A stretch of DNA of 32,475 nucleotides from Herpetosiphonaceae bacterium (lineage in GTDB: Bacteria; Chloroflexota; Chloroflexia; Chloroflexales; Kallotenuaceae). The notes under the pieces were generated by a model that did not search any database, was not told the DNA's origin, and saw only the letters and a program-made list of their open reading frames with translations. The stretch covers positions 1 through 32,475 of the forward strand of contig DASUTC010000092.1 of the NCBI GenBank assembly GCA_036374795.1. The letters are read 5' to 3'. Position numbers and translations under genes: made by a program. Below, in pieces: positions 14,057 to 32,308 of the stretch; position 1 is the stretch's first letter, and each line of letters begins with the position of its first letter.

Positions 14057-14074
14057 AGTTCCTCCTCAAGGCAC

Positions 14075-14115
14075 AAAAAAAGCGCCAGTGGCGCGAGGCC
14101 GCTGACGCTGGTCGC
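14075..14115 (-). terminator. Attenuator-like terminator in the pyrC leader
   Basis: In minus-strand RNA a GCGCC/GGCGC hairpin with a 3-nt loop (14094-14082) is followed by seven U (14081-14075), only ~8 nt before the GAGGAGG of pyrC. An upstream segment (14115-14108, GCG-A-CCAG) can pair with CTGGCGC, the 3' arm of the terminator, and would act as antiterminator. This arrangement points to transcription attenuation of the pyrimidine genes. The sensor is unknown; I do not see a convincing PyrR-binding loop. Confidence 0.65.
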
Positions 14116-14176
14116 TTACAGGTTGAGCTGTGGCTGAGACGCCGGTTGCTGCCGAGGTTCTGCATACCGGGTCTAT

Positions 14177-14185
14177 AGGGTAGCA
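14177..14185 (-). promoter_or_regulatory. Extended -10 (TGC-TACCCT) of the pyr genes
   Basis: Minus-strand TGC TACCCT places the transcription start near 14170 and gives a ~114-nt leader that contains the attenuator. No clear -35 was found. Confidence 0.45.
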
Positions 14186-14261
14186 CGCAGGGCCACTTTT
14201 GGCAAATCGAGCTGTGTCACATGAAGACGCGCGCCATCCACGACATACTCAGATCTGGCCC

Positions 14262-14290
14262 TTGACAAAGCGGCCTTTTTAACCTACTAT
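14262..14290 (+). promoter_or_regulatory. Near-consensus promoter of the RiPP-like cluster
   Basis: TTGACA (14262-14267), an exactly 17-bp spacer and TACTAT (14285-14290). This is the strongest sigma-70-type promoter in the window. It faces the diiron-enzyme gene and predicts a start near 14297. Confidence 0.8.
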
Positions 14291-14296
14291 AAACGG

Positions 14297-14614
14297 AGCA
14301 TACCAGCTATACATATTTTGGTTATTATCCCCCCTGATAACCATCAATGTATGTGCCCTAATCAATATATAACAGCCCATTAAGCACACGAGCACCCATC
14401 AGTTTAGGTTTGTTCGGGTCCATAAACGCCCATAACCCAAATCATTAACCTAACAACGTTACCTGGCATATTGCTCTCAGCACTATTCCAGGCCCGCATA
14501 CGCGAGCAGACACCCATTCAGCGTGTCGCCGATCGACCACACTCAACGTCAAATCCATAGCAGCTTGTGTTAGCCGACTTACTGAGCGTGTAGTAGAAGG
14601 GTAGAGGGTGGCAG
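14297..14614 (+). promoter_or_regulatory. Long AT-rich 5' leader of the cluster
   Basis: About 318 nt lie between the predicted start and ATG 14615. The composition is clearly more AT-rich than the surroundings and no open reading frame is supported. A hairpin with an 8-bp stem (GGTTATTA / TGATAACC, one G-U) and a C-rich 7-nt loop lies at 14319-14342 (approximate). Several ATAACC/TTAACC-like words follow. No B12 box was found, although the cluster encodes a B12-type radical SAM enzyme. The leader could be a regulatory RNA or a protein-binding region. Confidence 0.45.
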
Positions 14615-15391
14615 ATGACTCGTAAGCGTCTTATTGCGCCAACTAGCCAGGACCTTAAACGCAGCGCGTTTCGGATCTACGAGAAGGCACGGCGCGTCGC
14701 TCACTGGAATCCCAAAACAGACATCGACTTTGAGCGACCGACGACCATCTCCGCCGAGCGGCAGGAGCTAGCCTGGCATCTGGCTAGCCAGAGCGTCTAT
14801 GCCGAGCAAGTTGGCATGATGCAGGCCGCCCGGCTGCTGAACGAGGTGGACGATATAGCGATCCGCTACTGCCTCGCCACCGCCGTATCGGATGAGGCCA
14901 AACATAGCGAGGTCTTTACCCGCTACGCGATGATCCGAGGCGGCGTGGTCGCTCCTGATAGTGAATTTGTCAATAATCTCTTCGAGGGCCTCGAAACGAT
15001 TGAGGACCCCTTTGGGCGCTTCATCGCCCACTCCATGCTAGAAGGTCTGGCCGCAGACGAGTTCTGGATCTTGCGGGCAGCCTTCAAAGGTGATGTGCTT
15101 GAGGAAATCTACCGCCGCGTCAGCGAAGACGAGGCGCGGCACGTCGCTATCGGCATGGATTATATGTCAACCGTCCTGCGTGATCGGGCGTTCGAGGATC
15201 ATGTCCATGCGCTAGAGCAGTATAGCCACATAGCGCTTGATATTGCCGGGATGACGAACGATCAAATCTTTGTCTGGCTGGGCGGGCTGGTTGACAAACA
15301 CCCTGATGAGGTCGCTCGCTGGATGCTGCGCAGGCATCGTCAGCGTATTGACCATTTATTAAAAGGTATCAACAAGGAGGCATCGACATGA
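14615..15391 (+). CDS. Ferritin-like diiron enzyme (AurF/oxygenase-like)
   Basis: 258-aa protein with the carboxylate-bridged diiron ligand pattern: E64 (VYAEQVG), E94-x-x-H97 (DEAKH), E143 (MLEGLAADEF) and E173-x-x-H176 (DEARH). Two EXXH motifs plus two further glutamates on a helical bundle are characteristic of ferritin-like oxygenases, oxidases and R2-type proteins. I place it loosely near AurF/CmlI-type enzymes, not confidently in a named family. The substrate is unknown. Its stop codon overlaps the start of the 42-codon peptide gene (ATGA), and AAGGAGG lies in its last codons, so the two are translationally coupled. That makes oxidation of the peptide, or assembly together with the radical SAM enzyme, an attractive inference. 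ATG 14615 has a weak purine-rich site (GAGGGTGG). Confidence 0.65.
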   Translation: MTRKRLIAPTSQDLKRSAFRIYEKARRVAHWNPKTDIDFERPTTISAERQELAWHLASQSVYAEQVGMMQAARLLNEVDDIAIRYCLATAVSDEAKHSEVFTRYAMIRGGVVAPDSEFVNNLFEGLETIEDPFGRFIAHSMLEGLAADEFWILRAAFKGDVLEEIYRRVSEDEARHVAIGMDYMSTVLRDRAFEDHVHALEQYSHIALDIAGMTNDQIFVWLGGLVDKHPDEVARWMLRRHRQRIDHLLKGINKEAST

Positions 15392-15516
15392 AGAAGGTCA
15401 CTCTTCGTGGGTCGGCGACCGGCGTGTGCAGGTATGTTACATACATGCACGCTCGCGACAAGAAGCAGGACGCGAATGTAGCGAGTGAGAAGAAGACGGC
15501 TTCCAAGGCAAACTAA
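15388..15516 (+). CDS. 42-aa peptide, candidate RiPP precursor
   Basis: Short gene overlapping the diiron-enzyme stop (ATGA) with a perfect AAGGAGG (15374-15380) 7 nt before ATG 15388. The product has 42 residues. The N-terminal half (MKKVTLRGSATGVCRYVTYM) has one Cys (14) and two Tyr (16, 19). The C-terminal half (residues ~21-42) is highly charged and rich in Lys, Asp, Ala and Ser. It is directly followed by an intrinsic terminator and then a RiPP-type radical SAM gene, the usual position for a precursor peptide. If it is one, the aromatic/Cys-containing N-terminal part could be the core with a charged follower, but this is inference. I recognise no known precursor family. It could instead be a small accessory subunit. 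Confidence 0.65.
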   Translation: MKKVTLRGSATGVCRYVTYMHARDKKQDANVASEKKTASKAN

Positions 15517-15532
15517 CGACGGCGGACATGGT

Positions 15533-15568
15533 GAAGACTGGGGCGTGATACCTCAGTCTTCCATTTTT
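15533..15568 (+). terminator. Intrinsic terminator after the candidate precursor gene
   Basis: GAAGACTGGGG (15533-15543), a 7-nt loop and CCTCAGTCTTC (15551-15561) form an 11-bp stem with one G-U, followed by CATTTTTC. Placed between the peptide gene and the radical SAM gene, it would let most transcripts stop after the peptide while some read through, as in many RiPP clusters. Confidence 0.75.
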
Positions 15569-15583
15569 CATACGAGGATCGAC

Positions 15584-17458
15584 ATGCGGATACTGCTGGT
15601 CAACATGCCCTGGCATGCGCTTGACTACCCATCGATCGCCCTGGGTATTCTGCACGCTCGGATAGCCGCGTGCGAGGAACGGCATGAGATTTCAGAGCTG
15701 TACGCCAATCTGCGCTGGGCCGAGTATATTCTGGAGCATGGCGAGGCCGATCCGAACAGCTATATCGACGTAGCCGATCATGGGTTCTTCTACGGCGTGG
15801 GCGAATGGGTCTTCTCGTCGGCGCTCTACCGCCAGCCGGGGCATAACCTGGAAGAGTACTGCGCCTATCTGGAGCAGCACGGCTTCGATTCCCGCGCCGC
15901 CGCTCGGCTGCATGGGCTAGCGCCAGCATTCATCGAGGAGTTGGCACAGGAAATTGTCGCTCAGGGCTATGACCTGATTGGCTTTACCACGACGTTCCTG
16001 CAAAATGTACCGTCGCTGTCGCTGGCTCAGCGGCTCAGAGAGCTCCAGCCGGATCTGCGGATCGCCTTTGGCGGCGGGAACTGCGACGGCATTCAGGGCG
16101 TGACGCTGCATCGCAATTTTCCATTCATTGATTTCGTCGTGCGGGGCGAGGGCGAGCAGGCATTTGTCCAACTGCTGGACGCGCTCGGCGGACACGGCGA
16201 TCTCGCGGCGATCGAGGGGCTGTGCTGGCGCGACAGCAGCGGCGCGCCCGTGGTCAACCGCGACCGTACGATCGCCTACCCGATCGGCTCCGTGCCCATG
16301 CCGATCTACGATACCTACTTCGAGATGATGGACCAGTCGCCGGTGGCCGGGTATGTCGAGCCCAAGCTGGTCGTCGAGTCGTCGCGTGGATGCTGGTGGG
16401 GCGAGAAACACCAATGCACCTTCTGCGGACTGAACGGCTCGATGATCAAATTCCGCAGCAAGCGTCCGGATGCGGTCTTCGCCGAGATCGATACCCTGGT
16501 GCGAAAGTATCACGCGCTGGACATCGTGATGGTCGATAACATCATGGATATGGGCTACTTCAAAGCGCTGATCCCGCAGCTGATCGAGGCCGACTGGGAC
16601 AGCAGAATTCATTACGAGGTCAAGTCGAACCTGAGCAGCGCGCAGGTCAAGGCGTTGCGCGACGCGCATGTCGTGCATGTCCAGCCGGGCATCGAAAGCC
16701 TGAGCAGCCGGGTCTTGCGCCTGATGAAGAAGGGCGTCTCCGGCGTGCAAAACGTGCGGATGCTGCGCGACGGCGAGGAGAATAACCTAACCGTCTCGTG
16801 GAACTACCTGTACGGCTTTCCCGGCGAAACAGACGACGACTATCTGAACATCATTGAGCAGATACCGGCGCTGGTCCACTTGCAGCCGCCGAGCGGCGCA
16901 ACCCGCATCGCGCTGGAGCGCTTCAGCCCGAACTTCGACGATCCCAGCTTTGGCTTCACGCGGCGCAGGCCAGCCGATTGTTATAGCCTGATCTACGATC
17001 TGCCGGTCAGCGAGCTGGAAGATATGGTCTATCTCTTTGAGACTGATGAGGCTGGCATCCGCGACGCTACCGCGCGGCGGCTTCAGGACGCCGTGATCGA
17101 GTGGTCGGCGCTCTACTACGAAAGCTCGCTCACCTACCGCCAGGTCAACGGCGTGCTGCATATCAGCGACCGCCGGGCGAATCGTGCGCCAGCAGACATC
17201 ATCATCGAGCAGCCGCGAGACGTAGCGGCCTATCTGCTGCTGCGGCGTGGAATGACCCAGGCGGCGCTGGAGCGAGCGCTGATCGAGGAGGCGTTGCCGA
17301 TCGACGGCCTGGATCGATGGATCGGCGACATGAAACGCCAAGGCCTGATCTTCGAGGAGGCGGGAACCTACCTGTCGCTGGCAACCCTGGCAAATCCCGC
17401 GCGTGTCCGTATTCAGCCTGCTCCGGCGACAGAGGCTGCTGTCGCCGATATGAACTGA
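15584..17458 (+). CDS. B12-type radical SAM RiPP maturation C-methyltransferase-like protein
   Basis: 624 aa from ATG 15584 (GAGGA 5-6 nt upstream). Residues ~1-190 look like a cobalamin-binding Rossmann domain, and the GFTTTFLQNVPS and AFGGGNCDG segments are visible. The radical SAM site is C270-x7-C278-x2-C281 within RGCWWGEKHQCTFCGLNG. That wording matches the TIGR03975 group (rSAM_ocin_1, now called RiPP maturation radical SAM C-methyltransferases) as I recall it. The family installs methyl groups on unactivated carbons of ribosomal peptides or similar substrates using SAM and methylcobalamin. A ~120-aa C-terminal region from ~500 has a winged-helix-like look (ERALIEEALPIDGLDRWI). It follows the 42-aa peptide and precedes a DUF5825-like gene by 10 nt. 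Peptide methylation is inferred from family and context. Confidence 0.82.
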   Translation: MRILLVNMPWHALDYPSIALGILHARIAACEERHEISELYANLRWAEYILEHGEADPNSYIDVADHGFFYGVGEWVFSSALYRQPGHNLEEYCAYLEQHGFDSRAAARLHGLAPAFIEELAQEIVAQGYDLIGFTTTFLQNVPSLSLAQRLRELQPDLRIAFGGGNCDGIQGVTLHRNFPFIDFVVRGEGEQAFVQLLDALGGHGDLAAIEGLCWRDSSGAPVVNRDRTIAYPIGSVPMPIYDTYFEMMDQSPVAGYVEPKLVVESSRGCWWGEKHQCTFCGLNGSMIKFRSKRPDAVFAEIDTLVRKYHALDIVMVDNIMDMGYFKALIPQLIEADWDSRIHYEVKSNLSSAQVKALRDAHVVHVQPGIESLSSRVLRLMKKGVSGVQNVRMLRDGEENNLTVSWNYLYGFPGETDDDYLNIIEQIPALVHLQPPSGATRIALERFSPNFDDPSFGFTRRRPADCYSLIYDLPVSELEDMVYLFETDEAGIRDATARRLQDAVIEWSALYYESSLTYRQVNGVLHISDRRANRAPADIIIEQPRDVAAYLLLRRGMTQAALERALIEEALPIDGLDRWIGDMKRQGLIFEEAGTYLSLATLANPARVRIQPAPATEAAVADMN

Positions 17459-17468
17459 AGATAAGCCT

Positions 17469-18197
17469 ATGATGACGAATACAGGTTATCCGATCGATCT
17501 GCTGGAACGTCCTCCGGCTCAGCCCGGCCTGCGCATGACGGCGCGTATCACCCGCGAAGAGGAACTCGACCAACTGCTGCCGTGGCTGGCGGATCAGGCG
17601 GGCGGTGCCGAGTATACCGTGGTCTGGGCAGTTGACGACCCTGAGGTATGGCCCGACGAGCAGAGCGTCGGCGTGCTGGCGCGGGCAACCGTGCCCACGA
17701 TCGTGGTCGAGCGGCCTGTCGTGCTGTCGGCGGAAGCGCCCAGGGCGACGCTCGCGTTCATCCGTTTCCTGCGCGATTCGCTCTCGTTTGGCCTGCGCGT
17801 GCAGTGGCAGGGCAGCGCCGACGAGACGATCGATCTTGAGCGGCTGGTTCACCTGCCCGCGCCCACGGAAGATCCGGTCGATGAGCCCTTCGAGATCTGG
17901 CGGCAGCTCTACTCGTTCGGGCGCATGTATTGGCGACGCGGGCCGGGCTTTGTGATCATCCGAGATACGCGCCCAACCGTCATCCAGGCGCGCTTCGTGC
18001 TGGACGAGGCCGCGCTCTGCGAGACGTTTCAGCGGATGCAGGTGCCGGTGCGCATCTCCGATCTAGCCCAGGATGATGCGCTTGCCGAAGCGGCTCAAAC
18101 GCTGCTCGACGAGGGCATCGCGCTGCGCCTGGACGATTGGTGCGTTGCGCTGCCGTTCAGAATGCGGACCTGGCCGATCCCGTACACCTCGGTCTGA
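17469..18197 (+). CDS. DUF5825-like protein, probable rSAM partner
   Basis: 242-aa soluble protein starting 10 nt after the radical SAM stop, so the two are co-transcribed. It has no signal peptide, membrane segment or metal motif. The central part has FIRFLRDSLSFGLRVQWQG followed by an acidic stretch, then a conserved-looking YWRRGPGFVIIRDTRP near residue 160 and a C-terminal part that could be winged-helix-like. This resembles, from memory, DUF5825 proteins that accompany radical SAM RiPP enzymes in actinobacteria. Function is unknown; peptide recognition or a chaperone-like role is inference. Two in-frame ATGs begin it (17469, 17472) and the ribosome-binding site is weak, suggesting coupling to the upstream gene. 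Confidence 0.55.
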   Translation: MMTNTGYPIDLLERPPAQPGLRMTARITREEELDQLLPWLADQAGGAEYTVVWAVDDPEVWPDEQSVGVLARATVPTIVVERPVVLSAEAPRATLAFIRFLRDSLSFGLRVQWQGSADETIDLERLVHLPAPTEDPVDEPFEIWRQLYSFGRMYWRRGPGFVIIRDTRPTVIQARFVLDEAALCETFQRMQVPVRISDLAQDDALAEAAQTLLDEGIALRLDDWCVALPFRMRTWPIPYTSV

Positions 18198-18250
18198 CAG
18201 AGCCTATGCGATCATGGGCTCCTCGCACAGGTGGCTGCGCGAGCGGGCTT

Positions 18251-18341
18251 GCCAAGCACAGCCAAAAACTCGAAGTACGAGGCTTATAGCAGTTGCCGCA
18301 TAGCTCCTAACGCTGATAGGAGTTATGCGGTTGTGCTTGGC
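18251..18341 (+). other. Three-way-junction-like palindromic element
   Basis: A 91-bp structure in the gap after the DUF5825-like gene. The outer stem is 18251-18263 with 18329-18341 (GCCAAGCACAGCC / GGTTGTGCTTGGC, 13 bp, one G-U). Inside are a small hairpin CTCG-AAGTA-CGAG (18269-18281) and a long hairpin 18296-18309 with 18317-18330 (14 bp, one G-U, 7-nt loop). The wobble-compatible differences hint at RNA. Alternatives are a miniature transposon-like palindrome or a strong terminator without a T tract. It lies between the two halves of the cluster. Confidence 0.55.
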
Positions 18342-18350
18342 GGACGAACT

Positions 18351-18400
18351 AAGAACCGGGTGCCAGACCCAACGTGTGGCCCCAGGGCATGGGCGCCCGG
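18351..18400 (+). repeat. GGGTGCC hairpin repeat, copy A
   Basis: CCGGGTGCC (18356-18364) pairs with GGCGCCCGG (18392-18400). The 16 bases at 18385-18400 match, in reverse complement with one difference, bases 22968-22983 of a second copy. Both copies are embedded in heptad-repeat spacers and preceded by AAGAAC-type units. Confidence 0.55.
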
Positions 18401-18420
18401 CGCACAAGGGGAAACCCAGG

Positions 18421-18490
18421 TTCAAAGTTCAAGGAACTCAAAACTTGAAGCTTGAAACTTGAAACTCGCATTGAAGCTGTAAGCTGAAAC
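18421..18490. repeat. Heptad-repeat tract upstream of the second peptide gene
   Basis: Ten units in exact 7-bp phase: TTCAAAG, TTCAAGG, AACTCAA, AACTTGA, AGCTTGA, AACTTGA, AACTCGC and others. This is the same family as the pyrB downstream tract, in a different register. Confidence 0.7.
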
Positions 18491-18565
18491 ACATACATCG
18501 CGCCCAGTTCTATGCTACGCTCCGCTCACCTTCGCGCTGCGAAGCTCGATCGTGATAAGGAGAAA

Positions 18566-18682
18566 GTGGCAGAGGACGTTCAGGCACCTGTCATTGTCGC
18601 CCCCCACTACAAGCAACTGTTCGTGGAAGGAAACCTGCATTGCGAGCTTTGCCTCCTGCTTTCAAACATTCGCGCTTGGTGA
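18566..18682 (+). CDS. 38-aa peptide, second candidate precursor or leader ORF
   Basis: GTG 18566 follows AAGGAG (18557-18562) with tight spacing. An in-frame ATG at 18512 would give 56 aa but has no ribosome-binding site. The product begins AEDVQAPVIVAPHYKQLFVE and ends with a CELC pair (Cys26, Cys29), a Leu-rich stretch and a C-terminal Trp. Its TGA lies 2 nt before ATG 18685 of the MFS gene (TGA-GG-ATG), implying coupled translation. The location next to an exporter suits a precursor peptide or a translational leader for the transporter. No family is recognised. The alternative is that the MFS gene starts at TTG 18640 and this frame is coincidental. Confidence 0.4.
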   Translation: MAEDVQAPVIVAPHYKQLFVEGNLHCELCLLLSNIRAW

Positions 18683-18684
18683 GG

Positions 18685-19947
18685 ATGGGCGCAGATAAGC
18701 TTCAGAAGATTCGTGATCCCTTCGGCCTCGGCCAGCAGTATCAGCTTACCTGGATGGCCGAGACGATCAACGTTCTGGGTAGCCAGGTGACATTGCTGGC
18801 AATCCCGACGCTGGCTGTCATCGTCTATAACGCCTCCGCGATCCAGGTGACAACGCTGCTGGCGGTATCGTACCTGCCGTCGATGCTGATCGGCCCGCTG
18901 CTGGGGCTGCTCGTCGATAGCATCTCGCTGCGGCGGCTGCTGATCATCTCGGACCTGGCGGCGGCGCTGACGGTCGCAACCGTTCCCTTGCTGATGGCCT
19001 TCGGCCTCGACTCGCTGCTCTATCTCTACGTCGTGGGCGCGCTGATCGGCCTCTTCCAGGCGCTGCACGAGCTTTCGGTGCAATCGCTGATCCCGGCGCT
19101 GGTGCCGGAGCAAGACCTGATGCGCGGCAACGTCGACCTTGAGGGCGGTCGATCGGTTGGGCGCATGAGCGGCTGGAGTCTCGGCGGAACGCTGGTGCAG
19201 GTGGTGGGCGCGAGCTGGGCGATGCTGATCGACATGGCCTCGTTCCTGATCTCGGCGGCGCTACTCTGGCGGCTAAACGACTCCTCGCTGCGCCAGACAG
19301 CACCGCCGAAGCTCGGCTTTCAGTCCGTGCTCGACGGCCTGCGCATGTTCTCGCGCTCCTCGACGCTGATTCGCCTGACGATGGGCACCTTCACGCTGAA
19401 CTTGGGCGGCTCGGTCCTGGGCGCGCTCTATCTCTTCTACGTCTACCGCGAGCTACAGCTCTCGCCGTCCGCCGTGGGCGTCACCGTGACGCTGAATTAT
19501 CTGGGCGCGTTCCTGGGCGTGATCCTGGCCCGTCGGCTGGTCAAGCGCATGCCGCTCAGCCTGATGATTACCATCTCCTCGGCGGTTGCCGGGCTGGTGC
19601 TCTTTTTGATCCCGCTGGCCTCATACGGCAACAGCTTTATTGTTCTGCTGGTCTATAACCTGATCTTTGGTCTGGTCAGCGTTGTCTGGGCCGTGACCTC
19701 CGTGACGATGCGCCAGACGATCATCCCGCACCACCTGATGGGTCGCGTCAACGCCACGATGCGCGCGATCGGAGCAACCTCGTTCCCGATCGGCGCGATC
19801 GTGGGCGGTGTCGCCTCAAGCTTCTTTGGCGTACTGCCGACGCTGTACGCCGCCGCGATGCTCGCATCGACGGCCTGGATCTGGTTCTTTCCGCCGACGC
19901 GCTGGGTTGAATCGGCGCAGCGCGATCTGGCGGGAGAATCCACGTAG
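18685..19947 (+). CDS. MFS transporter, probable exporter of the cluster product
   Basis: About 420 aa with roughly twelve hydrophobic segments, of the MFS_3/enterobactin-exporter-like type. Visible features are an N-terminal WMAETINVLGSQVTLLAIP helix, a GPLLGLLVDSISLRRLLIISD loop equivalent to the MFS motif A, and MGRVNATMRAIGATSFPIGA in the second half. ATG 18685 is chosen for the stop-start coupling with the small ORF. TTG 18640, with GGAAGG 9 nt upstream, would add 15 residues and cannot be excluded. It is followed after 9 nt by the E1 alpha gene, so it belongs to the same transcription unit. Proton-driven efflux of the peptide or small-molecule product is inferred from context. Confidence 0.85.
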   Translation: MGADKLQKIRDPFGLGQQYQLTWMAETINVLGSQVTLLAIPTLAVIVYNASAIQVTTLLAVSYLPSMLIGPLLGLLVDSISLRRLLIISDLAAALTVATVPLLMAFGLDSLLYLYVVGALIGLFQALHELSVQSLIPALVPEQDLMRGNVDLEGGRSVGRMSGWSLGGTLVQVVGASWAMLIDMASFLISAALLWRLNDSSLRQTAPPKLGFQSVLDGLRMFSRSSTLIRLTMGTFTLNLGGSVLGALYLFYVYRELQLSPSAVGVTVTLNYLGAFLGVILARRLVKRMPLSLMITISSAVAGLVLFLIPLASYGNSFIVLLVYNLIFGLVSVVWAVTSVTMRQTIIPHHLMGRVNATMRAIGATSFPIGAIVGGVASSFFGVLPTLYAAAMLASTAWIWFFPPTRWVESAQRDLAGEST

Positions 19948-19956
19948 GGGGTATGC

Positions 19957-20985
19957 ATGCCAGGAACTGCATCGGAAGCGCCGGGCAACGACGACCAGGC
20001 GGCCATGCTGCACCTGTACCAGACGATGCTGCGGATACGGGTTTTCGAGGAGCGGCTGCTGACGCTGCGCTCCAGCGGCGAGATCACCGGAGTTGTCCAT
20101 CCCTACATCGGCCACGAGGCCATCGCCGCCGGAGTGTGCGCCGCGCTCCAGGCCGACGACCAGATCGCCAGCTACTATCGCGGACACGGCCACGCAATCG
20201 CCAAGGGCGTCGCTCTTCCCCGGATGATGGCAGAGATCTTCGGGCGAGAAACCGGCCTCTGTCAGGGCCGAGGCGGCTCGATGCATCTTGCCGATTGGCA
20301 GCGCGGCTTTCTCGGCGGCAACGCGGTGGTCGGCGCGAACGTGCCGATCGCCCTGGGCCTGGCGATGGCTGCGCAGGTTCGCCAGAGCGATCAGGTCGTG
20401 GTCGTCTTCTTCGGCGATGGCGCGACCGGCGCGGGCGTGGTTCATGAGTGCCTGAGCGTGGCCTCGGCGCAACACCTGCCGATCGTCTTTGTCTGCGAGA
20501 ACAATAGCTACCAGGACGTCACCCGCAGCGATCAGGTCTTCGCATCGACGGACTTGAGCCGCTGGGGCGGCGCGCACCTGATGCCCGGCGTGGCGGTCGA
20601 TGGTAACGATGTGCTTGCGGTGCGACAGGCGGCGCGCGATCTGGTAGCTCGCGCGCGCAGCGGCGAAGGACCGTCCTTTCTGGAGGCGAAAACCTACCTG
20701 CTGCGCTTCCACGCGCAGTGGGGCACCAGGCCGCTGCCGGAGTATCGCCCGGCAGATGAGGTCCAGCAGTGGGCTACGCGCGATCCGCTGCCTCGGCTCA
20801 GGGCTGTGCTGATCGAGCAGGGCTGCGCTGCCACGCAGCTTGAGGATCTGGCCCGGCTGGTGGATGCCGAGGTCGACGAGGCGGTCGCGTTTGCGCGCGA
20901 GTCGTCGCCGCCAGGCCCAGAAACGGCAATGCGCGGCGTTTTCACACCCACATCGGCGCAGCCAGCAGCAAGCGAGGTACCGTAA
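19957..20985 (+). CDS. ThDP-dependent 2-oxoacid/acetoin dehydrogenase E1 alpha-like subunit
   Basis: 342-aa alpha subunit of a heterotetrameric ThDP enzyme that decarboxylates 2-oxo acids or cleaves acetoin. The ThDP/Mg motif runs from GDGATGAGVVHE to CENNSY (residues ~150-185). HPYIGHEA and YRGHGHAIAKG near residues 50-75, and GRGGSMHLAD near 107, are closest to acetoin dehydrogenase AcoA. ATG 19957 has AGGGGG 5 nt upstream; ATG 19953 is out of frame. Its stop overlaps the beta-subunit start (TAATG). No E2 (lipoyl) or E3 gene is adjacent, so this E1 may transfer its ThDP-bound acyl unit to something other than the classical complex, or borrow a housekeeping E2. Confidence 0.88.
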   Translation: MPGTASEAPGNDDQAAMLHLYQTMLRIRVFEERLLTLRSSGEITGVVHPYIGHEAIAAGVCAALQADDQIASYYRGHGHAIAKGVALPRMMAEIFGRETGLCQGRGGSMHLADWQRGFLGGNAVVGANVPIALGLAMAAQVRQSDQVVVVFFGDGATGAGVVHECLSVASAQHLPIVFVCENNSYQDVTRSDQVFASTDLSRWGGAHLMPGVAVDGNDVLAVRQAARDLVARARSGEGPSFLEAKTYLLRFHAQWGTRPLPEYRPADEVQQWATRDPLPRLRAVLIEQGCAATQLEDLARLVDAEVDEAVAFARESSPPGPETAMRGVFTPTSAQPAASEVP

Positions 20986-21971
20986 TGACGATGGCTCCCC
21001 CGACCAAGGTCATCACCGAGCAGCTTCGGGCCAATCCGAGGCTGCTCTACTTCGGCACCTATGTGCCGCCATTCTGGACCGACGAGTTCGGCAGCGCCCG
21101 CATTCGCTTCTTTCCGATCGCCGAGCATACGATGGTCGGCGCCGCGGTTGGCGCGGCCATCGCTGGCCTGCATCCGATCGTCCATCTCAACCGCGCAGCC
21201 TTCGCCTTTGTGGCGATGGACCAGATCGTCAACCAGGCGGCGAAGCTGCGCTACATGTCGGGCGAGCAGTTCTCGATCGGAATAACGCTGCGGGCGATGA
21301 CCAGGGGCGGCGATAACCTTGGCGCGCAGCACGAACAGTCGCCGTACGGCATGTTCGCGCATGTGCCGGGCATCAAGGTCGTCGTGCCGTCGACGATCGA
21401 GGAGGCTGCCGGGCTGTACCTGACGGCGTTTGACGATCCGAATCCGGTCTTTGTCTTCGAGGCTCCGCAGCTCTATGAGTGGTGGGACCGCAGCGACGGC
21501 GTGATCGAGCCGATCCCCTTCGGCGCGGCGCGCGTCTGGCGTCGGGGGGCGGATGTGACGATCGTCGCGATCGGCGTGATGGTGCGCGAGGTGCTGACGG
21601 CTGCTGATCGGCTGGCGCAGCAGAACATCTCCTGCGCGGTGATCGACCCGCGCACGCTGGTGCCGCTCGACATGGAGACGATCGCCGCGTCGGTACGCAC
21701 CACGGGTCGGCTCGTCGTCGTCGATGAAGCGCCGCCGACGGCTTCGATGGCGGCTGAGATCATCGCGGCGATCTGCGATCGGCCTGAGCTCTACGGAGCG
21801 CTCGCGGCCATGCCGGTGCGTGTGTGCGGGGCCGCCCTGCCGATGCCCTTCAGCCCGGCGTTGCAAGCGGACGCCATCCCGAACGCCGATCGGATTGTGC
21901 AGGTGGTGGAGCGGCTGGTGTCTGGCTCGTCTTCGCAGCCGGTGGCAGAAAACGACGCCTCGTGCGGATGA
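20985..21971 (+). CDS. ThDP-dependent 2-oxoacid/acetoin dehydrogenase E1 beta-like subunit
   Basis: 328-aa beta subunit, with an N-terminal transketolase-like pyrimidine-binding domain and a C-terminal transketolase domain. Visible motifs are AEHTMVGAAVGAAIAGLHPI near residue 45, GAQHEQSPYGMFAHVPGIKV near 115-135 and IDPRTLVPLD in the C-terminal domain. ATG 20985 overlaps the alpha-subunit stop by one base, and MTMAPP offers a second Met; coupling ensures equal amounts of both subunits. Together with alpha it forms the complete E1 active site. The paired SDR 78 bp downstream suggests reduction of an acyloin or keto product. The exact substrate is not readable from sequence. Confidence 0.88.
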   Translation: MTMAPPTKVITEQLRANPRLLYFGTYVPPFWTDEFGSARIRFFPIAEHTMVGAAVGAAIAGLHPIVHLNRAAFAFVAMDQIVNQAAKLRYMSGEQFSIGITLRAMTRGGDNLGAQHEQSPYGMFAHVPGIKVVVPSTIEEAAGLYLTAFDDPNPVFVFEAPQLYEWWDRSDGVIEPIPFGAARVWRRGADVTIVAIGVMVREVLTAADRLAQQNISCAVIDPRTLVPLDMETIAASVRTTGRLVVVDEAPPTASMAAEIIAAICDRPELYGALAAMPVRVCGAALPMPFSPALQADAIPNADRIVQVVERLVSGSSSQPVAENDASCG

Positions 21972-21991
21972 CGAAAGAACAAAGAACCAAG
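21971..21991. repeat. Short heptad-repeat tract
   Basis: Three 7-bp units (ACGAAAG, AACAAAG, AACCAAG) directly after the E1 beta stop. Confidence 0.4.
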
Positions 21992-22049
21992 CGCCTACAG
22001 GCCGTGGGCTTGGATGAACGTGGCGCTGAGGCGCGGCAAGGAGATGCTC

Positions 22050-22832
22050 ATGATTCAGGACGCTGGCCGGGGCAGGGTGGCGCTGATTACAGGCGGTTCC
22101 AGCGGTATCGGTCTGGCGAGCGCGGCGGCATTGCTGAATGACGGCTACGCGGTGATGCTCTGCGCGCGCGGCGAGGAACGGTTGCGCCAGGCATCGGAGA
22201 AGCTGGGGAATGCCGAGCGCTGCGCGTGGCACGTCGCCGATATGGCGCAGCCGGAGCAGGCGCAGGCGGCGGTCGAGGCGACACGGCAGCGCTTCGGGCG
22301 TCTGGATGCGCTGGTCGTCTCGCACGGCGTTCAGCCGGAGCCCAGAAGCTTCCTTGAGCTGACCGCCCAGGACTGGCAGCAGACGCTTGGCGTGAACCTG
22401 CACGGTGTGATCGCCGTGTGCCAGGCGGCTGCCCGCGTGATGGTCGAGCAGGGCGCGGGCGGTAGCATCGTCACCATCTCCTCGGTGAACGGCCTCTACC
22501 CTGAGGCGACGCTCGCGCCCTACAACGTATCCAAGGCGGCGGTGATCATGCTGACGAAATCGATCGCCTGTGAGCTGGCACCGCACGGTATTCGGGCACA
22601 TTGCCTCGCGCCCGGCTGGGTGGTAACGCCGATGACTGAGGCGCACTATGTGCCGATCGCCGGACGACCGCTGGATAATCCGCTGGTGGGCAAGATCGGC
22701 CAGCCCGACGAGATCGCAAGCTGGGTTGCCTTTCTGGTCGGCTCGGGCTCGTCCTATGCTACGGGCGAGGTGATCGTGGTCGATGGCGGCCAGACGACCG
22801 CGCTGAGTCCGGTTCGCCTGCGCCGCGTTTAG
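22050..22832 (+). CDS. Short-chain dehydrogenase/reductase (classical SDR)
   Basis: 260-aa NAD(P)-dependent oxidoreductase. The cofactor motif GGSSGIG is near residue 15. The catalytic Ser is in TISSVNG near 145, and the Tyr/Lys pair is in YNVSKAA near 160. The C-terminus has VDGGQTTA, usual for the family. I use ATG 22050 because AAGGAG (22038-22043) lies 6 nt upstream; in-frame ATGs at 22044 and 22014 fit worse. The protein resembles the 3-oxoacyl-ACP reductase / acetoin-diacetyl reductase group, which cannot be separated by eye. Being the last gene of the plus-strand run after an acetoin-type E1, it may reduce the product of that enzyme. It ends before a long heptad/hairpin region that is likely the transcription end. 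Confidence 0.87.
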   Translation: MIQDAGRGRVALITGGSSGIGLASAAALLNDGYAVMLCARGEERLRQASEKLGNAERCAWHVADMAQPEQAQAAVEATRQRFGRLDALVVSHGVQPEPRSFLELTAQDWQQTLGVNLHGVIAVCQAAARVMVEQGAGGSIVTISSVNGLYPEATLAPYNVSKAAVIMLTKSIACELAPHGIRAHCLAPGWVVTPMTEAHYVPIAGRPLDNPLVGKIGQPDEIASWVAFLVGSGSSYATGEVIVVDGGQTTALSPVRLRRV

Positions 22833-23840: not shown

Positions 23841-24575
23841 GTGAGCTTCGATCACTGGACATTGCAGCAAGCGCAGCGGCTAGCTCAGATCATCACACTC
23901 CACCATGACCAGGCTGCCCACAGCGCGTGCCTCGACGTGCTGGAGCCGTATATTACCGCCCAGCTTGCCGGGCAGGACTATATAGCGCTATTTCCGATCG
24001 TGACCCAGCATCTCGATAGCTGTGTCGCGTGTGCCGAGGCGTACGCCCTGGTGTACGAGGCGCGTCTCGCCGAGGCGACGGATCTGCTACCGATCGCCGT
24101 TCCCGCGCCCGCTCTGGATTTCTTGCGGCTGAGCACAGCGGATCGGCTACAGCGGACGCTCACGGCTGCGATCGAGCGGCTGGCAGAGCGCCGTTTGCGC
24201 TTCACGCTCTCCCAGTCGCTCCTCGATCTGCTCGCGCCGCAGCGCTCCGAGTTTGCGCTGCGTGGCGCTGCCCACGAGCCGATGCTTGATGTAACCGTCG
24301 ATCAGCCCTTCGGCGATGACACGCGGCTTCAGGTGAGCGTCTATCGGCAGCGCGATGCCCAGGATCAGTGTACGGTGCGCTCCCAGGTAGTGCTTGCCGA
24401 TCGCGAGTGGCCCGATCTGGCCGATCTTCCCGTGACGCTGACCGTCGGCGGCACCCAGCGCCGCGCTCACACCGATCCCTGGGGCGAAGCTGTCTTCGAG
24501 AATGTGCCGATCGACGATGTGCCGGGGCTTCAGATCGAGGTCGATGTCGATAGCCCGCCGCAGACCAGCACGTAA
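23841..24575 (+). CDS. Zinc-finger (ZAS/zf-HC2-like) anti-sigma-type protein with C-terminal beta domain
   Basis: 244 aa from GTG 23841 (AAGGAGG 5 nt upstream; the longer in-frame version lacks a ribosome-binding site). H57-x3-C61-x2-C64 (QHLDSCVACAEAY) is the ZAS-type zinc motif found in anti-sigma factors. The helical N-terminal part before it resembles zf-HC2 proteins. No membrane helix is seen, so it would be a soluble regulator. Residues ~150-240 form a beta-rich domain that ends like a carboxypeptidase-regulatory-like or Cna-B-like fold (TDPWGEAVFENVPIDDVPG). Its last 46 bp overlap, tail to tail, the end of the CHAT gene. Binding of the adjacent sigma factor and sensing through the CHAT protein are inferences from gene order. 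Confidence 0.65.
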   Translation: MSFDHWTLQQAQRLAQIITLHHDQAAHSACLDVLEPYITAQLAGQDYIALFPIVTQHLDSCVACAEAYALVYEARLAEATDLLPIAVPAPALDFLRLSTADRLQRTLTAAIERLAERRLRFTLSQSLLDLLAPQRSEFALRGAAHEPMLDVTVDQPFGDDTRLQVSVYRQRDAQDQCTVRSQVVLADREWPDLADLPVTLTVGGTQRRAHTDPWGEAVFENVPIDDVPGLQIEVDVDSPPQTST

Positions 24576-27199
24576 GGTGCCCAAAAGATCGGGTTGGCGA
24601 AGGGTCGCGCTGCTGGATCGTCGCTTAAGCTCTGCGGCACGGCCTCGCCGTTCCGCGCCAGCCACTCGGCGACCTCGCGCGCGCGCAGGTGGCGCAGGTA
24701 GCGCTGCGCCGCACGCAGCGCCGTGGGCGGATCGCTGCATGGCTGCTGTGCCAGGAGGATGGCATAAAACCGCTCCATCAGCAGCCGCGCCGAGGTATCT
24801 TCGACCATCCACAGCGTGACCAGCACGGCTCGCGCGCCGGATCGCAGGAACGTCCGCACCAGGCCCATCGGCTCATCGCCGCGCAGCACCCGGCTCAGGC
24901 CGCTCCGGCACGCGCTGAGCGTCACCAGTTCAGCCTGAAGCTGGTAGTCCGCGAGCACATCGGCGGCGCTGAGCTTCTCGCCGGGGCCGATCTCCAGCCA
25001 GGAGCGCAGGGGATTGTCGTGATCGAACTCCCCGTGACAGGCGAAGTGGAGCCATCGGTAGCGCCCGACGACGGCGGACAACTGCCGCCGAATGTCGCGA
25101 TGCCCGTGCCAGACGGTTCCGCCACACAGCGCCGCGACCGTCTCCGCCTCCGGCTCGACATGCCGCAGGTTGCGGTCGGTGCCGCCGTCATAGCCCACGG
25201 TCAGACATAGCTCGGAAGCGCCAGCAGATCGCGAGCGTCCGGCGCGGAAGAGAACCGTCGCGCTCGGCGCGTAGATCAGGTCCAGGCCATGCTCAAGCAG
25301 CGGCTCGTCGTTGTCGTCGAGCAGCGCGGTGAAGGGAAGCTGATGCAGCGGGCCGTGGGGAATGATCGCCACCTGCCGCGCCGGAGCCAGCAGATCGCCA
25401 GCGGGCGCGATCAGCGCCCGGTAAATCCGGCGCAGGAGATTGCTCGCCAGGAAGCGCTGGCCGTCGGCAAGATACGGCGAGGCGGCCTGGAAGACGTTTG
25501 GATTGACCGCGCAATCATGGCCGCGTATGTCGTCGGCGGTGAGCGCTAGGAGCAGCAGCCGCGAGGGCGTTTCCAGACAGGCGCGCACCCGTGGATCGCA
25601 CGCGCGGAGCAATGCCGTTTCTGGATTGTACAGGCCGGTGCTCACATACGCCAGCACAAGCATCTGCGGAGGCAGCAGCGCCTGCACCTCACGCGCGGTG
25701 ATCGGCGCGACATCGGCGGCATGCAGGCTGGACGTATGCCGCGCCAGCATATCGGCAAAGGCCCGTGCCCGCGCGCGCTCCGCGTAGTCGAACGCCAGCG
25801 CCGCATCGCCCTGCTCCAGGCACAGCAGGATTGCCGCCTCGTAGACCTGCTGCCAGCGTCCCATGATGCTGATTTGCAGCGATTCGTCGGAGGTCGTCGC
25901 GCGCGCCGCCTCGATCGCCTCGACCGCCAGCGCGTAGTGATGCAGCGCCGCCGCCGCATGGTGGAGCCGCTGCTCGGCATGGCCGATCCGGTACTGGACC
26001 TGCGCGACAATCTCACGCCGTCCAAGCTCCTGCACTATCTCTAGCGCCGCACGATAGTGAACCAGCGCCGCAGCGTCGTCGTCCTGCGCCTGGCACACCA
26101 GACCAAGGCCAAGATGCGCGTCCACGGCGAAGGTGCGCGTGCGCATCTGGTGCAGCGCGCGCTCGAAGTCCGCGCAGGCACGGTCGAACTGGCCCTGAAG
26201 CAGCCGGACCTCGGCGATATTGTTGGTGACTTGCGCGAAGAAGTCGAGCGGCCCGTCGCGCTCGAAGATCGCGGCGGCATGGCCGAAGGCCGCCAGAGAT
26301 TGCTCCCACCGCCCAAGATCCCGCGCCACAAGCCCCAGGTTGGTCCAGGCCATCGCCTGCCAGTGAACGTTCTCGACCCGCCGAAAAAGCTCAAGGCTGG
26401 TGGTAAGCTGGCGCTCGGCGACTGGATAATCCTGGAGGTAGTAGCTCAGGATGCCCAGGTTCATCAGCGCCAGACCCTCGCGCGCAGGATTGCCGAGGCG
26501 CTGCCATAGCTCGTAGCTGGTCTGAAACGTATCTCTGGCGCGCTGATAATCGCCTTGCAGCCGCGCGAACGTGCCCTCAGAGTTGAGCACCCGCGCGCGC
26601 AGCGCGTCGTCCAGCTCGGCCTCCGTCAGCAGGCGCGTCAGCTCGGAGCGCGATGCTGCGTACTGCTCGATCAGACCGAAGCTGAGGCCACGGTAGTACC
26701 ACAGCAGGTACCGATGCCTGGGCGTTCGCAGATCGTGCAGCGGCAGCTCGGCAAGCGCGGTCGCCAGCGCGGTCGGCTCCTGCTGGATCAGCAGCTCACA
26801 GAAGCGCTCGACAAGGCGCATGGTAGTAGCTTCGAGCGCGGCGTGCTCCGGCGGAGCGGCCATCGTCAGGCGGTGCGCATAGTGCCGCGCGGCCTCGCCA
26901 ACCAGTGCGCGCAGCAGCTCCGGCGCTTCTTGCAGCGCGCTGTAGATCGCCTCCTGCACCGACGGATTGATCCGGTAGCCCGGCGCTGCTGTGCAGATGA
27001 TGCCAGCGGCCACGAGATCCGGCACGATCGTCGCGACCGGCTCGTCCACGAGCGCGGCCAGCGTGTCCAGATCGAATGTTTCGAGGATCGCCGCTGCTTC
27101 CAGCACATGGTACTGGCTCGGAGATACACGGGTGAGCCCGTCGCAGAATTGATCCGTCGTCTCTTCGGTATGCTCACTATTACGGATGATCGCCACCAT
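24530..27199 (-). CDS. TPR-CHAT protein (caspase-like protease)
   Basis: 889-aa cytoplasmic protein. Residues ~20-130 look like a winged-helix/STAND-type remnant (LEAAAILETFDLDTLAALVD, then PGYRINPSVQEAIYSAL) without a P-loop. Residues ~160-470 are tetratricopeptide-like helical repeats (for example ALMNLGILSYYLQDYPVAERQL). Residues ~560-885 are a CHAT domain with the caspase-type dyad: His722 (LHFACHGEFDHDNP) and Cys764 (LSACRSGL). CHAT proteins are clan CD peptidases; some, such as Craspase's Csx29, cleave anti-sigma-type partners when triggered. The neighbouring sigma and zinc-finger genes make a proteolytic switch plausible here, but this is inference. ATG 27199 has GGGGAC upstream. The 3' end overlaps the convergent zinc-finger gene by 46 bp. 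Confidence 0.88.
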   Translation of the reverse strand: MVAIIRNSEHTEETTDQFCDGLTRVSPSQYHVLEAAAILETFDLDTLAALVDEPVATIVPDLVAAGIICTAAPGYRINPSVQEAIYSALQEAPELLRALVGEAARHYAHRLTMAAPPEHAALEATTMRLVERFCELLIQQEPTALATALAELPLHDLRTPRHRYLLWYYRGLSFGLIEQYAASRSELTRLLTEAELDDALRARVLNSEGTFARLQGDYQRARDTFQTSYELWQRLGNPAREGLALMNLGILSYYLQDYPVAERQLTTSLELFRRVENVHWQAMAWTNLGLVARDLGRWEQSLAAFGHAAAIFERDGPLDFFAQVTNNIAEVRLLQGQFDRACADFERALHQMRTRTFAVDAHLGLGLVCQAQDDDAAALVHYRAALEIVQELGRREIVAQVQYRIGHAEQRLHHAAAALHHYALAVEAIEAARATTSDESLQISIMGRWQQVYEAAILLCLEQGDAALAFDYAERARARAFADMLARHTSSLHAADVAPITAREVQALLPPQMLVLAYVSTGLYNPETALLRACDPRVRACLETPSRLLLLALTADDIRGHDCAVNPNVFQAASPYLADGQRFLASNLLRRIYRALIAPAGDLLAPARQVAIIPHGPLHQLPFTALLDDNDEPLLEHGLDLIYAPSATVLFRAGRSRSAGASELCLTVGYDGGTDRNLRHVEPEAETVAALCGGTVWHGHRDIRRQLSAVVGRYRWLHFACHGEFDHDNPLRSWLEIGPGEKLSAADVLADYQLQAELVTLSACRSGLSRVLRGDEPMGLVRTFLRSGARAVLVTLWMVEDTSARLLMERFYAILLAQQPCSDPPTALRAAQRYLRHLRAREVAEWLARNGEAVPQSLSDDPAARPFANPIFWAPYVLVCGGLSTSTSI

Positions 27200-30220: not shown

Positions 30221-32308
30221 ATGAATCGTTTCGTCAGGCTGTTCGCCATCGTTCTCTTTGCGCTTAATGTGCTGCTGGTGCCACAATCAGGACAGGCATC
30301 CAGCACGAAGCTCGCGCCGCTCGCGGTTGCCAAAGGCAAGGCCATTCCTGGTCAGTATATCGTTGTGATGAAAGAGGGTGGCGATGCGCGCGCCGCCGCC
30401 GCTATCGCAGGCGTGACGCCCAAGTTTGTCTATGAGGCGGCGCTCAACGGCTTCGCGGCAGTGCTGAACGCCGGACAGCTCAACGCGATTCGACGCAACC
30501 CCAATGTCGATTACGTCGAACAAGACCAGGAGGTCAAGGTCGATGCGACGCAGTTCATGGATGCCAACGGCGATCCGTGGGGCCTCGACCGTATCGATCA
30601 GCGCAATCTGCCGCTCTCCGGCAGCTTCACCTACTACCTGACCGGCAGCGGCGTGACGGCCTACATTATCGATACGGGCATCCTGACGACGCATCCCGAC
30701 TTCGGCGGACGCGCGGCGGATGCGTACGACGCAGTTGACGGCTCGCTCCCGGCGACCGATTGCCAGGGCCACGGCACGCATGTCGCGGGCACGGTCGGCG
30801 GCACGACCTGGGGCGTTGCCAAGAGCGTCCAGCTGCGCGGCGTGCGCGTGCTCGACTGTAACGGCTCCGGCACGTATGCCTGGGTGATCGCCGGCATCGA
30901 CTGGGTGCGCCTGAACGCGGTCAAGCCAGCCGTGGCGAACATGTCGCTGGGCGGCGGCTACTCGGCGGCGGTCAACACCGCGACGACCAACCTGGTCAAC
31001 TCCGGCGTCTTCACGGCGGTAGCCGCAGGCAACGATAACCTGAATGCCTGTAACTACTCGCCTGCCAGCACGCCTGCCGCGTACACGACCGCAGCCTCGG
31101 ATAAGCTCGATCAGCACGCGATCTTTACCTTCGGCGGCTCGAACCACGGCACCTGCGTCGACGGCTATGCGCCGGGCAAGGCGATCAAGTCGGCCTATCT
31201 CAACAACAGCACCGCCACGATGAACGGCACCTCAATGGCCTCGCCGCACATCGCGGGCTGCGCCGCTCACTACCTGCAGCACAACGGCAACGTGCCGGTC
31301 GCCGCGGTGACGGCCTGGATCAACAACAACGCGACGCTGAACGTGCTCAGCGGTGTTCCGGCGGGCACGCCCAACCGCCTGCTCTACTGCTACAAGCCCG
31401 ACGTGTGGGTCGGCGACAAAACTGCCGACACGGGCCGCGAGCCCGATCCGGCGACCGCCGCGATGAACATGTGGGAAAGCCCCTACATCTGGAATCGCCT
31501 CGCCAACGACAATATCTACGGCCACCAGAATCCTGAGTTCGGCCAGACCAACTGGATGTACGCCCGGCTGCGCAACCGTGGTCATATCACCGGCAGCGGC
31601 AACCTCCGCTTCTACGTCGCCAACGCGTCGGCGGGCCTGGCCTGGCCGACCAACTGGACCCAGATCGGTGTGGTGGCGGCGAATGTAGCTCCGGGCGCGA
31701 CGGTGGACGTGAAGGTGCCGTGGAATCCGCCCAGCACCGGCCACTACTGCATCCTGGTCCGCTGGGAGTCCGCCCAGGAGCCGATGACCTACGGCGAGAC
31801 ATCGGATGTCAACTACAACACGCGCTACAACAACAACATCGCGTGGCGCAACATGAATATCGTCAATCTCAAGCCCAACTGGTGGCAATGGATCGACTTC
31901 GACTTCCGCAACATTGATCGCGAGCTGCGCCCGCAGCGCCTGGTCATCCGCGAGCCGCGCGAGCAGCTACAAGATCCGTTCCTGCGCCATGGCAACGTGG
32001 TTGTCGACCTGGGGCCTGAGCTGACGCGGTTCTGGCTGGAAGCAGGCGGCAAGGGCGGCGGCTTCGAGCGCGTGGGTGAGACACAGTTCCGCGTGATCGA
32101 TCCGATGGGCGCGTGGTTCGATGGGATTGTCACCGAGCCGGATAAAGCCTATCCCGTCAAGCTGGGCTTCCAGTCCGACGAGATCACGACCTCTCAGCGT
32201 CCGTTCATGATCGAGGCGGTGCAGTACGCCGAAGGTCTGCGAGAGCCGGTCGGCGGCGTGAGCTACGAGGTCTATCTGCCGGATGGCACCGCGGAGCCGA
32301 TCAAGTAG
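30221..32308 (+). CDS. Secreted subtilisin-like serine protease (S8, proteinase K-like)
   Basis: 695-aa preproprotein. The signal peptide covers residues 1-~26. An inhibitor I9 propeptide (~42-107, GQYIVVMKEGG ... NVDYVEQDQEV) follows. The S8 catalytic domain (~115-390) has D151 (YIIDTG), H184 (GHGTHVAG), oxyanion N271 (AAGND) and S338 (NGTSMASPHIAG), all present. Cysteine pairs suggest the extracellular proteinase K subgroup. Residues ~395-695 form a C-terminal region rich in Trp and Asn (DVWVGDKTADTGREPDP near 395, WESPYIWNR), probably beta-sandwich for substrate binding or attachment. ATG 30221 has GGAGG 6 nt upstream. A long non-coding upstream region with a 56-bp direct repeat may carry regulation, and a terminator follows. 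Confidence 0.94.
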   Translation: MNRFVRLFAIVLFALNVLLVPQSGQASSTKLAPLAVAKGKAIPGQYIVVMKEGGDARAAAAIAGVTPKFVYEAALNGFAAVLNAGQLNAIRRNPNVDYVEQDQEVKVDATQFMDANGDPWGLDRIDQRNLPLSGSFTYYLTGSGVTAYIIDTGILTTHPDFGGRAADAYDAVDGSLPATDCQGHGTHVAGTVGGTTWGVAKSVQLRGVRVLDCNGSGTYAWVIAGIDWVRLNAVKPAVANMSLGGGYSAAVNTATTNLVNSGVFTAVAAGNDNLNACNYSPASTPAAYTTAASDKLDQHAIFTFGGSNHGTCVDGYAPGKAIKSAYLNNSTATMNGTSMASPHIAGCAAHYLQHNGNVPVAAVTAWINNNATLNVLSGVPAGTPNRLLYCYKPDVWVGDKTADTGREPDPATAAMNMWESPYIWNRLANDNIYGHQNPEFGQTNWMYARLRNRGHITGSGNLRFYVANASAGLAWPTNWTQIGVVAANVAPGATVDVKVPWNPPSTGHYCILVRWESAQEPMTYGETSDVNYNTRYNNNIAWRNMNIVNLKPNWWQWIDFDFRNIDRELRPQRLVIREPREQLQDPFLRHGNVVVDLGPELTRFWLEAGGKGGGFERVGETQFRVIDPMGAWFDGIVTEPDKAYPVKLGFQSDEITTSQRPFMIEAVQYAEGLREPVGGVSYEVYLPDGTAEPIK

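Follow-up and report, generated by a model that had tools for sequence, protein, structure and literature searches.

A 42-codon ORF as probable RiPP precursor gene between genes for an R2-like diiron protein and a B12-binding radical SAM enzyme in a Herpetosiphonaceae bacterium

A 42-codon open reading frame (ORF) of a Herpetosiphonaceae bacterium, situated between the genes of an R2-like ferritin-fold diiron protein and a B12-binding radical SAM enzyme, can with high confidence be regarded as a RiPP precursor gene. It occupies positions 15388-15516 of the window (i.e. the whole stretch of DNA that was analysed, 32,475 nucleotides of contig DASUTC010000092.1), on the forward strand, as do the diiron, radical SAM, DUF5825, MFS and SDR genes and the signals described below. 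For the locus as a whole, we consider it probable that a very short RiPP precursor is matured by a radical SAM/DUF5825 pair and the R2-like diiron enzyme, and exported by an MFS protein; the explanation builds on synteny, sequence conservation, enzyme families and predicted hairpins, all of which the analysis showed.

The start codon (ATG 15388) overlaps the stop codon of the diiron gene (15389-15391) in an ATGA (15388-15391), and the Shine-Dalgarno sequence AAGGAGG (15374-15380) lies upstream of it with a 7-nt spacer, as the initial annotation had described for its 42-codon gene. The encoded peptide (42 aa) is MKKVTLRGSATGVCRYVTYMHARDKKQDANVASEKKTASKAN, with MKKVTLRGSATGVCRYV... as its N-terminal part. 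On their own, the Shine-Dalgarno sequence, the overlap and a hairpin downstream constitute modest evidence for a gene. The arrangement AAGGAGG-N4-10-ATG occurs a single time in the window (0.26 expected), and as at least one occurrence was present in 25 of 100 shuffles, the Shine-Dalgarno sequence alone is weak evidence. Codon usage is ambiguous and does not prove the coding status, since the codon score falls between coding and non-coding values (it was matched or beaten by 19% of non-coding open frames, while only 1.9% of coding segments were equally low). A chance ORF without function would agree with this ambiguity and with the expected frequency of the Shine-Dalgarno match, but it is contradicted by the synteny and the sequence match to Alicyclobacillus, and we hold it to be extremely improbable. 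It is thus the comparison with the syntenic Alicyclobacillus ORFs, and not codon usage, that identifies the 42-codon ORF as a gene.

The closest relatives of the radical SAM protein, as found by a scan of the genome collection, belong to Alicyclobacillus shizuokensis (L045) and A. ferrooxydans (L046), and the gene order diiron protein, short ORF, TIGR03975 radical SAM, DUF5825 is common to the window and both these loci. The Alicyclobacillus ORFs encode peptides of 21-22 aa (A. shizuokensis, 21 aa, L045:4697-4762, MKKVQIPRKVKQGTCHYMIGS; A. ferrooxydans, L046:4776-4844, MKKVKIPKRVKPGTCHYMITQS); the latter ORF has a stop-start overlap of the kind seen in the window (GTGA), and MKKV and GxCxY are common to all three peptides. 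The window peptide aligned to the two with a summed score of 63, which was reached by 26 of 20,000 of its own shuffles; its ORF ranked first of the 1,068 small ORFs of the window by alignment to the Alicyclobacillus peptides, and equal or higher scores were registered for 2 of 16,857 ORF/start combinations from other loci. One of these two was inspected (in L078) and, being antisense inside the radical SAM gene of its locus, was set aside as a chance match. In the two Alicyclobacillus ORFs, nucleotide differences are concentrated at the third codon position (4, 4 and 11 changes at positions 1, 2 and 3, respectively, over 20 codons), and frameshifts or stop codons, sought in the ORF frame of the two syntenic relatives, were absent. 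The proposal that a RiPP precursor gene is coupled to the diiron gene is supported by conserved, syntenic ORFs beside the same enzymes, the small peptide gene of the window adjoining, as in L045 and L046, a gene of a RiPP-maturase family (TIGR03975).

The genome collection was searched with peptide patterns and about 1,800 genomes with profiles (large groups being sampled), which yielded three diiron-type loci, so that GxCxY rests on three sequences. When the peptide was searched for in the host genome and 60 relatives, only weak chance matches turned up besides the peptide itself; no further radical SAM of the window's clade was found in 158 genomes searched within the class, and no further diiron homologue in 59 genomes of the Alicyclobacillus order. 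A search of viral contigs gave no match. One more candidate for a diiron-type locus (G319) was rejected, as its diiron homologue and radical SAM gene are on separate contigs.

Comparison of the three peptides suggests how the precursor may be organized. It would comprise a putative leader motif, MKKVTLR (15388-15408; KKVxhR/P, common to the two Alicyclobacillus and eight Streptomyces-type upstream ORFs), a putative core, G12-V-C14-R-Y16-V (15421-15438; aligned with GTCHYM of both Alicyclobacillus peptides), and a charged C-terminal tail, H21-N42 (15448-15513), that is specific to the window and absent from both orthologues. Judged from these sequences, the N-terminal KKV stretch is likely the leader and GxCxY likely the core. 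The initial annotation had instead envisaged an N-terminal core with a charged C-terminal follower, and had raised the conservation of RGSATGVCRYVTYM, a part that does hold the conserved G-x-C-x-Y. Although the window peptide indeed carries its Cys and Tyr residues in the N-terminal half, both orthologues end 3-4 residues past GTCHYM, and the N terminus is what Streptomyces upstream ORFs with different cores have in common, for which reason MKKV looks like a leader; we consider the core-follower layout unlikely and have given it up. The 22-residue tail, missing in Alicyclobacillus, is not a general follower and is dispensable in the family.

The Streptomyces relatives of the radical SAM/DUF5825 pair have upstream ORFs of 27-41 aa, several of which start with KKVx[IV]R. 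One set, which includes S. clavuligerus, follows MQKD[IV]IHNDPL..ENRKP..GITITVPF.., and a second follows E[IL]KK[VI]xVRE...EKRPTR, with the KKVxhR start of the window and Alicyclobacillus ORFs. Among the small ORFs of the loci fetched by then, 14 of 8,497 carried KKVx[ILV][RKP] near the N terminus (five distinct clusters, all at peptide-gene positions), a count that is only descriptive because the pattern was defined after the peptides had been seen; further upstream ORFs with this pattern or KKI were found later in the family of G1193. The radical SAM proteins of the window and the two Alicyclobacillus species group together in a maximum-likelihood tree (96/97); the KKV-type proteins (100/100) and those from loci with clavusporin-like ORFs each form a separate clade. 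The KKV-type Streptomyces clusters (L049, L068, L069, L099, L102, L103, L105, L106; DUF5825 confirmed in L049, L068/L089 and L069/L090) resemble the window in their homologous radical SAM and in an upstream 27-40-aa ORF with KK[VI]x[VI]R, whereas their peptides have a conserved end, [ED]KRP, where the window type has GxCxY, and no diiron homologue was found in the flanks retrieved for L049, L068 and L069.

Other small ORFs were observed near radical SAM genes of the TIGR03975 family. In L100 and L104, similar 27-aa ORFs (MDFA......TSCxGSGxxN....YA[MI]P) lie approximately 220-340 nt upstream of the radical SAM gene and possibly represent a further precursor type of the family, and in L097 an ORF located 62-320 nt upstream begins with MELKKTITYPRQCGG and continues in repeated AVRVASSP-like units. 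The host genome itself has a second TIGR03975 radical SAM gene (L088, G000:C278, 2102-8436). Downstream of it come two 61-aa ORFs that resemble each other and end in KVGIVIEF and KVSLVVEF, an 89-aa ORF, and genes for an M16 peptidase and an MFS-like protein; the locus has the look of a further RiPP cluster, with a precursor of another type.

The peptide and radical SAM genes of the window are separated by a hairpin with a T tract (15533-15569). Its stem-loop (15533-15561) has 11 pairs and a 7-nt loop, is followed by CATTTTTC, and has the most pairs of any terminator-like site in 14057-19000 (-17.1 kcal/mol, z -3.8); an Rfam search gave no match. Strong hairpins are present between the two genes in 3 of 3 diiron-type loci (z -3.8, -4.8 and -4.5 in the window, L045 and L046, respectively), the T tract in the window only. 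Of the terminator originally ascribed to the peptide gene, the 11-pair hairpin with its T tract before the radical SAM gene is therefore real in the window, but the U tract is not a feature of the L045 and L046 hairpins. The hairpin, placed 3' of the peptide gene, may lower read-through into the radical SAM gene, so that the peptide would exceed the enzyme. The same hairpins (and the T tract) could also be expected if the ORF acted as an attenuator, a translated leader controlling the radical SAM gene, its peptide having no role as a product. Yet the KKV and GxCxY residues are conserved across phyla, the changes are biased to third codon positions, a TIGR03975 radical SAM should require a peptide substrate, and the Streptomyces ORFs at the equivalent place are precursor-like; we thus regard an attenuator as very unlikely and retain the precursor reading.

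The 624-aa radical SAM protein (15584-17458, from ATG 15584) contains B12-binding and radical SAM domains and scores 581 bits, above the curated cut-off (282), with the TIGR03975 model of B12-binding radical SAM RiPP C-methyltransferases. The usual radical SAM cysteine motif is CX3CX2C; here it is CX7CX2C (C270, C278, C281; CWWGEKHQCTFC), which is invariant in the Alicyclobacillus relatives. The gene directly downstream (17469-18197) encodes a DUF5825 protein (242 aa; PF19142, E 2.9e-22), the probable partner of the radical SAM enzyme, that is 31-35% identical to its Alicyclobacillus counterparts; its poor structure model (mean pLDDT 69) gave nothing usable against the PDB. The DUF5825 profile also weakly matches residues 500-568 of the radical SAM protein (E 9.7e-5), which suggests that the partner resembles its C-terminal domain.

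Published passages on clavusporins (PMC12257519) describe C-methylation by a B12-radical SAM and DUF5825 pair, and, given the organism and its gene pair, we infer that the S. clavuligerus locus is the clavusporin cluster. Clusters of this type (TIGR03975 radical SAM with DUF5825, in S. clavuligerus and relatives) are like the window in having a homologous radical SAM (45% identical), DUF5825, a short precursor-like ORF directly upstream of the radical SAM gene and an MFS gene; they differ in the presence of an S9-type peptidase gene and in having no diiron gene. Unlike the window peptide, their precursor-like ORFs (39 aa, MQKD[IV]IHNDPL...GITITVPF) are without GxCxY; the window peptide, of the MKKV/GxCxY type and with its radical SAM in another clade, is accordingly no clavusporin-like precursor (MQKDIIHNDP...TVPF). 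The YHxYxY/MNIO clusters with a second B12-radical SAM and DUF5825, in the passages of the same source, likewise have the pair beside an iron oxidative enzyme and a precursor, but there the iron enzyme is an MNIO (DUF692), while that of the window is an R2-like ferritin-fold protein.

We assign this protein (258 aa, 14615-15391), a probable oxidative tailoring enzyme, on the basis of NCBIfam, the PDB and its ligand pattern. It matched the NCBIfam R2-like ligand-binding oxidase with E 2.8e-12 (46.5 bits, under the cut-off of 194), its PDB matches were R2lox chains (E 2.6e-8), and Foldseek ranked R2lox first with a low-confidence model (mean pLDDT 61; E-values above 0.001). The residues E64, E94xxH97, E143 and E173xxH176 are invariant in the three orthologues (the window protein being 42-44% identical to those of Alicyclobacillus) and align with R2lox residues that we take to be its metal ligands. 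The likeness to R2lox thus covers the fold family and six metal-ligand positions, while the window protein differs in its length of 258 aa, in scoring below the NCBIfam cut-off and in its location in a peptide cluster. Relatives in Pantoea and Xenorhabdus are found in non-radical SAM clusters, and our literature search returned no paper that joins R2lox with RiPP, nor one that brings diiron, ferritin-like, RiPP and radical SAM together.

Downstream of the DUF5825 gene, an MFS protein (18640-19947; MFS_1, E 8e-26) probably serves in export or self-protection, and MFS genes also adjoin the related clusters in L045, L046, L049 and L090. After it, E1-alpha and E1-beta (2-oxoacid dehydrogenase-like) and SDR genes follow in one run (19957-22832) without an E2 gene; they possibly supply building blocks or form an unrelated operon, and the arrangement was not found in the compared loci. 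The SDR oxidoreductase (22014-22832) is a doubtful member of the cluster: the Alicyclobacillus clusters have an SDR too, 25% identical over 171 residues. A nearby SDR, an oxidative diiron enzyme, a length of 21-22 aa and a single conserved CxY would also suit a precursor of a small redox cofactor or metallophore, from which, in the manner of PqqA or the mycofactocin precursor, only a Cys-x-Tyr or Tyr piece is kept as product. We judge this improbable, given that the SDRs of the window and Alicyclobacillus, at that low identity, are differently placed, that an MFS exporter is present and that the cores of the related Streptomyces ORFs are without Cys or Tyr; moreover, the window peptide has no ExxxY, and its partner genes are of other families than the PqqB-E type. 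No dedicated peptidase gene was found in the cluster; peptidase-like proteins (a CHAT protein, 24530-27199, and a subtilase, 30221-32308) are encoded elsewhere in the window.

We reason that, for a RiPP precursor, the N-terminal KKVx[IL]x stretch would be the leader recognized by the radical SAM/DUF5825 pair and GxCxY(V/M) the core, whose residues the B12-radical SAM with DUF5825 may C-methylate, as with the clavusporin pair. The R2-like diiron enzyme would carry out an oxidation that depends on O2, with the conserved Cys or Tyr as the likeliest site. A peptidase would trim the product, and the MFS protein would export it; the 22-residue charged tail found in the window's lineage would have to be removed or tolerated. 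The system may thus be viewed as a DUF5825/B12-radical SAM short-precursor pathway (of the clavusporin kind) in which an R2-like diiron enzyme has been added and the core is GxCxY, the chemistry of the product being our inference.

That both enzymes, the R2-like ferritin-fold diiron oxidase and the B12 radical SAM methyltransferase, act on the 21-42-residue precursor, at a GxCxY core and with recognition through a minimal KKV leader, and so define a RiPP subclass, is a proposal that we advance tentatively, as a serious possibility falling just short of probable. To our knowledge, no R2-like diiron enzyme was previously known to modify a ribosomal peptide, and the present one would, if the proposal is true, be the first. 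With components that are all small and defined, the locus allows a direct test of what R2-like diiron proteins do in peptide modification. A rare branch (so far from Chloroflexota and Bacillota) joins the poorly known DUF5825/B12-radical SAM peptide pathways; its precursor is very short, at 21 aa, and an O2-using diiron enzyme is paired in it with an oxygen-sensitive radical SAM enzyme.
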